Source of the DNA: Chloroflexota bacterium
GTDB lineage: Bacteria > Chloroflexota > Anaerolineae > Anaerolineales > Villigracilaceae
Direction: 5' to 3'
NCBI GenBank assembly: GCA_013388855.1
Contig: JACAEM010000008.1
Coordinates: 1 to 64,000 of the forward strand
Length of the DNA stretch: 64,000 bases
Part shown: one piece after another, positions 26,337 to 36,181 of the stretch
Layout: every line of letters begins with the position of its first letter
How positions within the stretch are numbered: position 1 is the stretch's first letter
Notes under the pieces: generated by a model
Told to the model about the DNA's origin: nothing
What the model saw: only the letters and a program-made list of their open reading frames with translations
Database searches by the model: none
Program-made: the position numbers and the translations under genes

Positions 26337-26445
26337 GGAAAACAAATCACTGCTGATGTACATTGTCCCGAAAGTTTGAGCGACTCGGCAAGATTCTCCC
26401 AGGAAACCCTTCGGGACGTATACAGGGATGGGAAAATAAAAAATA

Positions 26446-26917
26446 CCTCAGGTCCGTTTATAAGCCGCATTCTGTCCATGACGCCAAAGCGCCACTGTGC
26501 GATCATCTCTCTGGGCGGTGCGTTGCCGCGCCGCTCGGTGCGGCCTACCCGGGACTGACCCAATCACCGTGTGAAAGGGTACGTATGAAGACGAGCAGTC
26601 TCCCGCCGTCCGCAGACGGCTTCGTCCCTGCTTGGCCTTGCTCCCGGCGGGGGTTACCTGGCCATCCACATTACTGCAGATGCCGGTGGTCTTTTACACC
26701 ACCTTTTCACCATCACCCCCTCACCCCTGCGCCCCTCTCCCAGTGGAAGAGGGGATGGGGGTAAGGGTGGCTGTTTGTTTCTGTGGCCCTTGTCCGGCAG
26801 GTTAGCTCCTCACGGAGGGTTCCCCGCCCCGGGTGCTATCCGACGCCGTGCTCTATGGAGTGCGGACTTTCCTCGATCCCGTAAACACAGGACCGCGATC
26901 GCCCAACCGACCTGAGG
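26446..26917 (-). ncRNA. rnpB: RNase P RNA (class A), with an expanded arm
   Basis: Matures tRNA 5' ends. The 5' core reads GAGGAAAGTCCGCACTCC (complement around 26858-26875). The 3' core GACAGAATGCGGCTTAT lies near 26463-26480. Other landmarks are GCAAGGCC and CCCGGGTAGGCC. The ends pair as P1: CCTCAGGTC at 26917-26909 with GACCTGAGG at 26454-26446. A T run on the RNA strand follows (26445-26433). A canonical promoter puts the start exactly at 26917. At about 472 nt it is longer than usual (roughly 380-400 in E. coli). The excess is a palindromic repeat at 26709-26771, in the region corresponding to P12. Confidence 0.95.
26709..26771. repeat. Palindromic GAGAGGGGATGGGGGT repeat inserted in rnpB
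   Basis: The left arm CCCTCACCCCTGCGCCCCTC pairs with a right arm AGAGGGGATGGGGGTAAGGG. The 3' half nearly matches the element in the kynureninase gene (35301-35343). In RNase P RNA it would form a long hairpin on P12. Confidence 0.75.
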
Positions 26918-26924
26918 CAACTGC

Positions 26925-26953
26925 ATCATACACGCAAGGGAATGGAGCGTCAA
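26925..26953 (-). promoter_or_regulatory. rnpB promoter
   Basis: -35 TTGACG (26953-26948), 17-nt spacer, -10 TATGAT (26930-26925), then 7 nt to the 5' end of RNase P RNA as defined by P1 pairing. A good local calibration of start-site spacing. Confidence 0.8.
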
Positions 26954-27056
26954 CGGCAATCGACAATTTTGAAAATCGGCAAATCGGTCTGAAATTTCGC
27001 TTAAATGACATTAAAATAGGAGACAGCAAGAAAGCAGCGGAAATGATGGAGTCATT

Positions 27057-28196
27057 GTGAGCAACTGGCCCGGAAAAACAATCATCGGTCTTACCGGCAA
27101 CATCGCCACCGGTAAGAGCGTTGTGCGGCGTATGCTGGAGCATCTTGGCGCATATACCATCGATGCAGACGCGCTTGCGCACCGCGTCATTGCCAAAGGC
27201 GCGCCGGGATATCAGCCCGTGCTTGACAAATTCGGCAGCTGGCTCCTCGACAAGGATGGTCAGATCGACCGGAGCCGGCTCGGACGCCTCGTCTTCTCGG
27301 ACGCGCAGGCGCTGGCGCAGCTCGAAGACATCATTCACCCCTACGTCATTCAGGCGGTGGAAATGCTTGTCAAACGCGCCAGCCAGAGCGTGGTTGTGGT
27401 TGAAGCCATCAAACTGCTCGAATCGGACCTGCGTAACAAATGTGACAGCATCTGGGTCACGGATGCGCCGCAGGAGGTCCAGATCGAACGCCTCATCCGC
27501 AAGCGCAACTTGAGCCGTGAGGACGCCCTGCAGCGGGTCCATTCGCAATCCGCACAGAAGGAAAAACTCGCCGCGGCAAAGGTCGTCATCACCAACAACG
27601 GATCATACGAGGACCTGTGGAAGCAGGTCACCGAGGCATGGAAACGCATCGCCCCCTCCCAGGAGGCTGGTCCCGCGACACAGGTCTTTACCAAGTCGGG
27701 AGCGGGCGCGTTCTCCCTCCAACGCGGCAAACCGCGCGATTCGCAAAAGATCGCGGACCTCATCAGCCGCCTGAGCAAAGGGAAACGCCACATGACAAAA
27801 GACGAAGTCATGGAAGCCTTCGGCGACAAAGCCTTCCTGCTCCTCCTCATGGGCAATGAACTTGTCGGCGTGGCGGGCTGGCAGGTGGAAAATCTCGTAG
27901 CGCGCACCACCGACCTCTACCTCGACCCGAAAGCCGCCGCCGACAAGGCCCTGCCGCTCATCATGGCCGAAGTGGAGCGCGCCTCGAGCGAACTGCAATG
28001 CGAGGCTTCGCTGGTCTTTCCTCCCATCGAATTGGTCGGCTTCGATTCGGTCTGGAAACATCTCGGCTACGAACGCCGTTCTCCCGACACCTTGGGCGTG
28101 CGGGCATGGACGGATGCCGCGAACGAATCCATGCCCAAAGCCTCGGCGCTCTTCTTCAAGCAGCTCCGCACCGACCGTGTGCTCAGACCGATCTAG
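27057..28196 (+). CDS. coaE: Dephospho-CoA kinase fused to a GNAT-like domain
   Basis: 379 residues from GTG 27057. Residues 1-200 are a full CoaE: P-loop GLTGNIATGKS, DADALAHRVI, GRLVFSD, HPYV and the LID/CoA region with QSAQKEKLAAA. It phosphorylates dephospho-CoA to CoA. Residues about 215-379 are an extra domain. ELVGVAGWQVENLVARTTDLYLDP and the following helix resemble the core strands of an N-acetyltransferase (GNAT) fold. Normal CoaE is about 200 residues, so this is a fusion. The GTG overlaps a TGA of a meaningless short frame. TAAAAT lies about 40 nt upstream. The role of the second domain is unknown. Confidence 0.88.
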   Translation: MSNWPGKTIIGLTGNIATGKSVVRRMLEHLGAYTIDADALAHRVIAKGAPGYQPVLDKFGSWLLDKDGQIDRSRLGRLVFSDAQALAQLEDIIHPYVIQAVEMLVKRASQSVVVVEAIKLLESDLRNKCDSIWVTDAPQEVQIERLIRKRNLSREDALQRVHSQSAQKEKLAAAKVVITNNGSYEDLWKQVTEAWKRIAPSQEAGPATQVFTKSGAGAFSLQRGKPRDSQKIADLISRLSKGKRHMTKDEVMEAFGDKAFLLLLMGNELVGVAGWQVENLVARTTDLYLDPKAAADKALPLIMAEVERASSELQCEASLVFPPIELVGFDSVWKHLGYERRSPDTLGVRAWTDAANESMPKASALFFKQLRTDRVLRPI

Positions 28197-34867: not shown

Positions 34868-36181
34868 ATGCCAACCTTCTCCCCCTCCCTCGACTTTGCC
34901 CGTCGCCTCGATTCCCTCGACCCTCTCGCCTCCTGCCGCGACCAGTTCCTCATCACCGACCCCAGCCTCATCTACCTCGATGGCAACTCCCTCGGGCGCA
35001 TGACCAAAGCCGCCGCCGAACGCGCCAAACAAGTGATGGAAGAATGGGGACACGACCTCATCCGCGGCTGGAACAAAGACTGGTGGGATGCCCCCCGCCG
35101 TGTTGGCGACAAGATCGGAAAACTCATCGGCGCCGCGCCGGGACAAGTCATCGTCACCGACACCGTCTCTATCAACCTCTTCAAACTTGCCACAGCCGCG
35201 CTCACCCTCCAGCCGCACCGCAAACGTATCATCACCGACACCCTCAACTTTCCATCTGACCTTTATATTCTTCAAGGCATTGTACATTTATTGAGCAATG
35301 CATCCCCTTCTCCTCGCGGGAGAGGGGATGGGGGTGAGGGTAAATACGAACTCATCCGCATCCCTTCCCGCGACAACGACATCACCCCCGACCTCGCCGC
35401 CCTCGAAGCCGCCATCAACGAAGATACCGCCCTCGTCACCCTCTCGCACGTCACCTTCAAAAGCGGCTACCTCTACGACATGCGCCGCATCACCGACCTC
35501 GCCCACGCCAAGGGCGCTCTCGTCCTCTGGGACCTCAGCCACTCCGCCGGCGCCGTCCCCATCGCGCTCGATGACTGCAACGCCGACCTCGCCGTCGGCT
35601 GCACCTACAAATACCTCAACGGCGGTCCCGGCGCCCCCGCCTTCCTCTACGTCAACAAAAAACTGCAAGAAAAACTCACCTCGCCCATCTGGGGCTGGTG
35701 GGGGCAAAAGAACCCCTTCGACTTCGACCTCGACTACACTCCCGCCCCCGGCGTGGAGCGCTTCCTCGCCGGCACACAACCGATGATTTCGTTGCTCACG
35801 ATGGAAACCGCCCTCGAACCGACCCTGCAAGCGGGACTGGACGCCATCCGTGCCAAATCCGTTTTGATGACGGACTACGCTTCATACCTGACCGATACCT
35901 GGCTCGCCCCCTTCGGCTTTTCCCTCGGCTCCCCGCGGGATTCTGCCAACCGCGGCTCCCACATCTACATCCGTCATCCCGAAGGCTACCGCATCGCCCG
36001 CGCCCTCATCGAAGAGATGAACGTCATCCCCGACTTCCGCGCCCCCCACAACCTCCGCCTTGGCTTTGCGCCGCTCTACACCTCCTTCGCCGAAATCTGG
36101 GAAGGCTTTGATAGAATCAGACGCGTAGTCGAAGAAAGACGCCACGAGAAATATCCCAAGCAAAAGTTAACCGTAACCTAG
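34868..36181 (+). CDS. kynU: Kynureninase
   Basis: 437 residues. PLP enzyme splitting kynurenine to anthranilate and alanine. Recognisable features: LDGNSLGRM, WNKDWWDAPRRVGDKIG, VTDTVSINLFK, DLSHSAGAVP, and PLP-lysine about 248 in TYKYLNGGPGAPAF; the C-terminus has HIYIRHPEGYRIARALI. Normal length is about 410-420. The excess includes a repeat-derived SPSPRGRGDGGEG insertion at about 146-158. No other kynurenine-pathway gene is in the window. The region upstream carries the words TTCATCTGTGGTGAATT, seen in other repeats here. Confidence 0.92.
   Translation: MPTFSPSLDFARRLDSLDPLASCRDQFLITDPSLIYLDGNSLGRMTKAAAERAKQVMEEWGHDLIRGWNKDWWDAPRRVGDKIGKLIGAAPGQVIVTDTVSINLFKLATAALTLQPHRKRIITDTLNFPSDLYILQGIVHLLSNASPSPRGRGDGGEGKYELIRIPSRDNDITPDLAALEAAINEDTALVTLSHVTFKSGYLYDMRRITDLAHAKGALVLWDLSHSAGAVPIALDDCNADLAVGCTYKYLNGGPGAPAFLYVNKKLQEKLTSPIWGWWGQKNPFDFDLDYTPAPGVERFLAGTQPMISLLTMETALEPTLQAGLDAIRAKSVLMTDYASYLTDTWLAPFGFSLGSPRDSANRGSHIYIRHPEGYRIARALIEEMNVIPDFRAPHNLRLGFAPLYTSFAEIWEGFDRIRRVVEERRHEKYPKQKLTVT
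35301..35343. repeat. Palindromic GAGAGGGGATGGGGGT repeat inside kynU
   Basis: CATCCCCTTCTCC / GGGAGAGGGGATG arms, then GGGGTGAGGGT. In frame; encodes SPSPRGRGDGGEG. Related to the copy inside rnpB. Confidence 0.75.

Follow-up and report, generated by a model that had tools for sequence, protein, structure and literature searches.

Helix P12 of RNase P RNA as a probable recurrent acceptor of dispersed palindromic repeats in a family of Chloroflexota

The distal part of helix P12 in the RNase P RNA gene (rnpB) of a Villigracilaceae bacterium is very probably a copy of a dispersed palindromic repeat, and P12 itself is very probably a recurrent acceptor, which has captured or exchanged repeats of several families in either orientation. 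The P12 sequence is that of a family of repeats scattered through the same genome; related genomes have it, lack it, carry other palindromes in its place, or carry it in the opposite orientation; and the rest of rnpB holds no trace of the family. The palindrome in P12 is one of many changes at this helix, not a lone event. We analysed a window of 64,000 nt from the start of one contig of a 99% complete draft genome (G000); the nearest relative that we found is G004. The features that matter here are as follows.

26445..26914, minus strand: rnpB, class A RNase P RNA, 470 nt (RF00010 model positions 1-367, 221.3 bits)
26709..26771, minus strand: distal P12 arm with its proximal pairs, an interval taken from the first-pass annotation (assigned to P12 by the RF00010 alignment; forms a hairpin whether folded locally or within the whole gene)
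26718..26767, plus strand in the orientation of the element, reversed relative to the RNA: two-armed copy of the dispersed palindrome in P12 (own-genome copies, profile score)
26925..26953, minus strand: promoter-like site TTGACG-17-TATGAT upstream of rnpB (consensus scan only)
35301..35343, plus strand: copy of the family, left outer arm missing, inside a kynureninase frame (own-genome match and core scan; kynureninase by Pfam)

Among ribozymes, RNase P RNA is a textbook case, and the lengths of its peripheral helices differ from species to species. The window's gene matches RF00010 from end to end (cmscan, 367 of 367 model positions, 26914-26445 on the minus strand, E = 1.7e-70), and it scores 221.3 bits against a gathering score of 100, full-length in both sequence and structure. 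It is a complete class A RNase P RNA and is predicted to be catalytically active with its palindromic arm. A first-pass annotation had put its length at about 472 nt, which the model match refines to 470 nt, with a promoter-like TTGACG-17-TATGAT 11 nt before the 5' end (the scanned stretch has 2 such sites vs. 0.3 expected). The annotation had also placed the extra length at P12, and the RF00010 alignment agrees: the extra length is the P12 of the model, between the conserved stretches CCACAGAAAC and GGUGAAAAGG, both of which are intact, as are the proximal P12 pairs. The folding energy of the P12 segment is −43.9 kcal/mol (z = −4.0), a value that 0 of 200 dinucleotide shuffles reach. A fold of the entire RNA on its own (minimum free energy −228.9 kcal/mol, z = −5.2; 0 of 100 shuffles as low) contains P12 as a separate hairpin. 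We rejected the arm as an intrinsic terminator because a terminator scan of 26380-27060 was empty, and Tandem Repeats Finder returned 0 rows in 26440-26920 at score 30, that is, no tandem array. P12 has been described as having no universally conserved nucleotides and as sometimes dispensable (PMC2858038, in the portion of the article available to us). The frame adjoining rnpB (window 27057-28196, 379 aa) encodes a dephospho-CoA kinase, of which Pfam CoaE covers residues 9-185 only; at E 0.001, Pfam gives no match to its C-terminal half.

Within 26709-26771, where a GC-rich palindrome had been noticed, the palindrome proper occupies 50 nt (26718-26767). It is one member of a GC-rich family of about 50 bp that is laid out as CCCTCACCCC, 3-4 nt, CCCCTCTCCC, a loop, GGGAGAGGGG, mostly 2 nt, and GGGGTGAGGG. 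A two-armed copy reveals its orientation through its asymmetry, as the left arms are 3-4 nt apart and the right arms mostly 2 nt. We counted 40 exact occurrences of the core CCTCTCCC-N3-6-GGGAGAGG in the 4.03-Mb genome, vs. 0 for a reversed-pattern control; the rnpB copy has one mismatch in the core and so is not counted among the 40. The core is also present in 50 of 61 genomes sampled from the genus, the family and the order. A search of the genome with P12 as the query gave 46 matches at E up to 1 (including the gene itself and many both-strand doubles), and the best dispersed copy matches at 91% over 54 nt. Of the 53 rows in an alignment of the genome's copies, the rnpB copy included, 17 have both outer arms, 33 lack the left one, 1 lacks the right one, and 2 lack both. 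Within the window, a scan for the core with up to three mismatches gave 5 matches vs. 0.29 expected, the best being at 26734 (1 mismatch) and 35307 (2 mismatches). Eight of the 15 copies that we examined lie inside stop-free frames of at least 300 codons, and Pfam names the host gene for two copies: leucyl-tRNA synthetase (LeuRS), in the region of the editing domain, and kynureninase (kynU).

To score P12 arms against the family, we built a profile from 14 of the 17 two-armed copies in the genome, the three left out being that of rnpB and two whose left arms were doubtful; 5 of the 14 were trimmed of the right outer arm. The rnpB copy scores 46.9 bits on the strand opposite the RNA and 29.5 bits on the RNA strand. 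Shuffled letters, which are a weak null, reach at most 4.2 bits. The two kinds of shuffles that preserve the hairpin reach 5.6 and 22.0 bits, and base-pair shuffles that keep the strand are the stronger null. Across 2780 hairpin-preserving shuffles of P12 arms, the maximum is these 22.0 bits, and 3 of the 2780 score 18 bits or more. Because the base-pair shuffles reach 22.0 bits, we set the cut for a secure copy at 25 bits (15 of 139 P12 arms) rather than at 18 bits (22 of 139).

We found rnpB in 57 of 61 genomes sampled from the genus, family and order and in 134 of 152 genomes of the family. P12 could be extracted from 139 of 146 rnpB genes (125 of them from the family); the other 7 gave no P12 by our anchors, and the P12s of G096, G131 and G145, which seem to have been clipped by an early anchor, were retained and counted as short. 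In several drafts (G003, G009, G016, G017 and G151; loci L053, L058, L062-L065 and L242), contigs end inside or close to rnpB, so that genes are split or truncated. One of the 15 secure copies (G052) is from another family of the order, and the better-scoring orientation is plus for 6 of the 15 and minus for 9. When P12 was excised from 125 rnpB genes, the dispersed-family profile found nothing over 5 bits in the remainder.

P12 measures 69 nt between the anchors in G000, vs. 32 nt in its congeners G009, G012 and G013, 40 nt in G008, and 45 nt in G014, and these five have a short P12 without the palindrome. Short states are the majority (85 of 121 tree rows). P12 is not the only variable arm: the standard deviation of arm length is 18.0 nt for P12, 16.7 nt for the P18-P19 stretch, and 15.1 nt for P15-P17. 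The first-pass annotation had proposed that absence of the palindrome from sister genomes at the same spot would establish an insertion, and the comparison bears this out in part. Congeners do have a short P12, and supported sisters do differ: G007 has the palindrome and G014 a short P12, and G162 has the dispersed family and G126 another palindrome. But the nearest relative, G004, carries the same palindrome in P12, reversed, so the empty state for G000 is seen only in more distant congeners. Moreover, only near-identical sisters have the same P12 tip, so an exact pre-insertion site in rnpB cannot be aligned. By eye, the stub in G005, ACCTCACCCC-GCAA-GGGGTGAGG, resembles the element's two outer arms joined by a GCAA loop. 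A search with 20 nt from the base of P12 gave exact matches in 46 contigs, which are labeled Anaerolineae, Anaerolineales, Anaerolinea, 'Chloroflexi bacterium', one Brevefilum, and one Herpetosiphon, the last two both genera of Chloroflexota. The dispersed family is in P12 at 18 bits or more in 7 of these 46, many of which are probably genomes that we had already sampled and hence not independent.

The distribution of the palindrome on the tree argues for repeated change. We inferred a maximum-likelihood tree from rnpB without P12 for 121 rows of the family (4 of the 125 rows were too short and were left out); its bootstrap had not fully settled. The 13 secure rows on the tree require 11 changes of state, of which at least 9 are forced by supported branches, with gains indistinguishable from losses, and none of 200 bootstrap trees (0%) unites the secure rows as one group. 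At 18 bits (20 rows), there are 17 changes, at least 14 of them forced (at least 10 on a quick tree), and at 30 bits (10 rows), there are 9 changes, at least 7 of them forced. The palindrome is only weakly clustered on the tree: when its labels are shuffled, 33 of 500 trials give as few changes. Genomes that carry the family in P12 also have more copies of it (at the 18-bit cut, median 43.5, n = 12, vs. 4, n = 37; P = 9e-5 with kinship ignored), and on the tree this comparison reduces to five independent pairs only.

Repeats of other families occupy P12 as well. In G039, which is from another family of the order, P12 holds an AT-rich palindrome whose matches number 7 in its own genome (rnpB accounts for 2, one per strand), 21 in the congener G052, and 0 in G000; the P12 of G052 carries the C-rich dispersed family. 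The P12 palindrome of G064 has 45 matches in its own genome (itself included), 24 in G063, and 0 in G000 and G004; the P12 segment of G063 is minimal, at only 24 nt. These two palindromes are clearly dispersed in their own genomes. A third type, with an AAATTT-type inner stem, is found by motif in 7 tree rows and may be dispersed too, on weaker evidence: there are a few further copies in G091, G126, G024, G066 and G137 and one 22-nt match in G072, with no copy beyond rnpB in G071 and none in G000. Helix P19 of rnpB is long in G001 (L051), G004 (L054) and G006 (L056), where by eye it holds a GGTTTCGA...TCAACC-type palindrome, reversed in G001. The exact form of that pattern matches 2 of 296 loci scanned, namely the rnpB regions of G001 and G017.

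The copies in protein genes give a second view of such sites. The near-equal element that the first-pass annotation had pointed out in kynU (35301-35343) was recovered by the own-genome search with P12 (C4:35305-35341, 84%, E = 1.7e-4). Among the 8 readable kynU loci of 12, the element is common to G000 and G006. At the site of this C-rich repeat, the kynU genes of G001, G004, G010 and G012 (L097, L100, L096 and L105) have an unrelated GGTGGTCGAG...-type insert. For LeuRS, we compared the copy of G000 with 16 congener loci (L277 to L293 for the 17 genomes in all), G017 being without an orthologous match. The full element is present in G000 and G006 and its left part in G011; G013 has an AAATTC-type palindrome, G009 and G010 have a GTAGGGGCGGATGGC-type insert, and 11 have none. 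One loop in the region of the LeuRS editing domain thus has in-frame inserts in 6 of 17 genomes, of three kinds in all, and two of these kinds also occur in P12 of rnpB. This suggests that permissive sites in essential genes (P12 of rnpB and the LeuRS loop) collect palindromes of several families. Relative to the nearest empty LeuRS sites, the 50-nt element replaces about 14 nt (a net gain of 36 nt, in frame), and we saw no target duplication at LeuRS, which is the one well-aligned site for comparison. A clean insertion is therefore not supported. The proposal of a mobile palindrome tolerated in rnpB is supported by the identity with a dispersed family (46.9 bits vs. 22.0 for shuffles) and by the other P12 states in relatives.

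A search for a transposition event, an active transposase, or a target duplication found none. The sole Y1_Tnp match in the G000 genome is a 543-aa protein (L121 265-1896, contig C19) with an unusual pairing of domains, a C-terminal Y1-transposase-like (IS200) domain and a weak N-terminal match to a response-regulator receiver; its 3.4-kb locus contains no repeat core. Because there is no REP-type transposase beside the copies and no target duplication was found, we propose that the repeat is non-autonomous and that it would enter, perhaps, through replication-linked or single-strand hairpin events that replace some of the target DNA. The element presumably still moves today. In our proposal, such repeats would land widely and survive at permissive spots; copies would reach P12 in either orientation, from several unrelated families, to replace or extend the tip of the helix, and would later be lost or exchanged again. 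P12 would tolerate a palindrome because the insert is its own helix: it would pair with itself and lengthen a peripheral helix, spare the proximal pairs and the flanking joints, and make no terminator. The effect on RNase P is probably near neutral.

Could P12 instead be long by inheritance, with its likeness to the repeat due to convergence among GC-rich hairpins? P12 is variable across bacteria, arms that resemble the element are GC-rich hairpins, and strand-keeping base-pair shuffles do reach 22.0 bits. However, the window's arm scores 46.9 bits vs. 17.1 for the best shuffle of that same arm, an inherited P12 does not sit well with 11 changes on the tree, and other genomes have unrelated AT-rich palindromes in P12 that are dispersed there. 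Nor do the relatives all share a long P12 with compensatory changes unlike those of the dispersed repeat, which the first-pass annotation had named as the outcome that would speak against an inserted mobile palindrome. We consider convergence highly improbable. Recruitment, in which the palindrome stays in P12 because it is of use to RNase P or has a binding partner, seems unlikely too. It would account for the repeated presence at one helix and for the sisters G124 and G164, which have the element in common and in the same orientation, but other close sisters have lost the element, reversed it, or swapped it for unrelated sequence. Also, if the palindrome were in use, pairing might be better kept in rnpB than elsewhere, and there is no difference: the paired share is 0.77 in 22 rnpB copies vs. 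0.76 in 14 dispersed ones (5 of the 14 trimmed at the right end). This suits tolerance rather than use.

A narrower question concerns the branch of G000 and G004. The element could have entered once in their common ancestor and then flipped in place between its own arms, so that the opposite orientations would reflect an inversion and not two captures. The two genomes are sisters (support 98/96), their elements match at 47 of 50 positions when one is flipped (41 unflipped), and among the copies compared, none is closer to the rnpB element of G000 than that of G004. On the other hand, the LeuRS copy of G000 and the rnpB copy of G022 each match at 46 of 50, and as all of these are near the consensus, the difference between 47 and 46 is meaningless. 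Other lineages, too, have both orientations (of the 15 secure copies, 6 are plus and 9 minus). With these copies so near the consensus, capture and reversal in place are indistinguishable for this pair, and we regard the single entry and flip as a possible, somewhat doubtful variant for this branch. For P12 as a whole, recurrent capture or exchange is still the reading that we prefer.

A repeat inside rnpB is already known and so is not new here. Rickettsia palindromic elements (RPE; Ogata et al. 2000, 2002) have been found in the genes for M1 RNA (rnpB) and tmRNA, and they are dispersed, 105-146 bp long, and in frame inside protein genes (PMC2229807, as far as the available text goes). Going by that description, the Chloroflexota repeat works alike, as it is also a dispersed palindrome that lies in rnpB and in frame in protein genes (8 of 15 copies in stop-free frames), but it is not a member: it is GC-rich and 50 nt long. 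The available text of PMC2229807 does not state which helix of M1 RNA is hit or whether unrelated families exchange there. In heterocyst-forming cyanobacteria, a genomic repeat family, STRR, is likewise found in the RNase P RNA gene (Vioque 1997, as cited in the accessible part of PMC2858038); these are, by title, short tandem repeats, whereas ours is a palindrome and forms no tandem array. REP sequences tagged with GTAG or CGTC and associated with RAYT transposases are also short dispersed palindromes, some of them inside genes, and the Chloroflexi are among the phyla from which they are reported (PMC3733652, in the portion available). We rejected membership in the REP/RAYT group because the ends of our repeat have no tag and no RAYT is flanked by copies in the 99% complete draft. 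GTAG or CGTC lies within 6 nt of an end in 3 of 53 copies, which is below the 12.3% of random flank pairs. As to a MITE, which would bring a target-site duplication, the one comparable site (LeuRS) has no duplication and has about 14 nt replaced. In our searches of open-access full text, we found no published description of palindromes in rnpB of Chloroflexota, nor of recurrence at one RNase P helix in both orientations and from several families.

A bolder reading is that new P12 helices in the order come mainly from selfish palindromes, which in repeated cycles are captured, reversed or exchanged, and eroded to a stub capped by a tetraloop, and that P19 may play the same part for another family. 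We hold this tentatively, at slightly less than an even chance. If it is true, then variation in the length of P12 would be largely a record of mobile repeats. For one variable helix of a ribozyme, the source can be named, and unrelated repeats occupy that same helix in related genomes. Closely related ribozymes that differ strongly in P12 form a natural set, with which the origin of variable RNA helices becomes directly testable.
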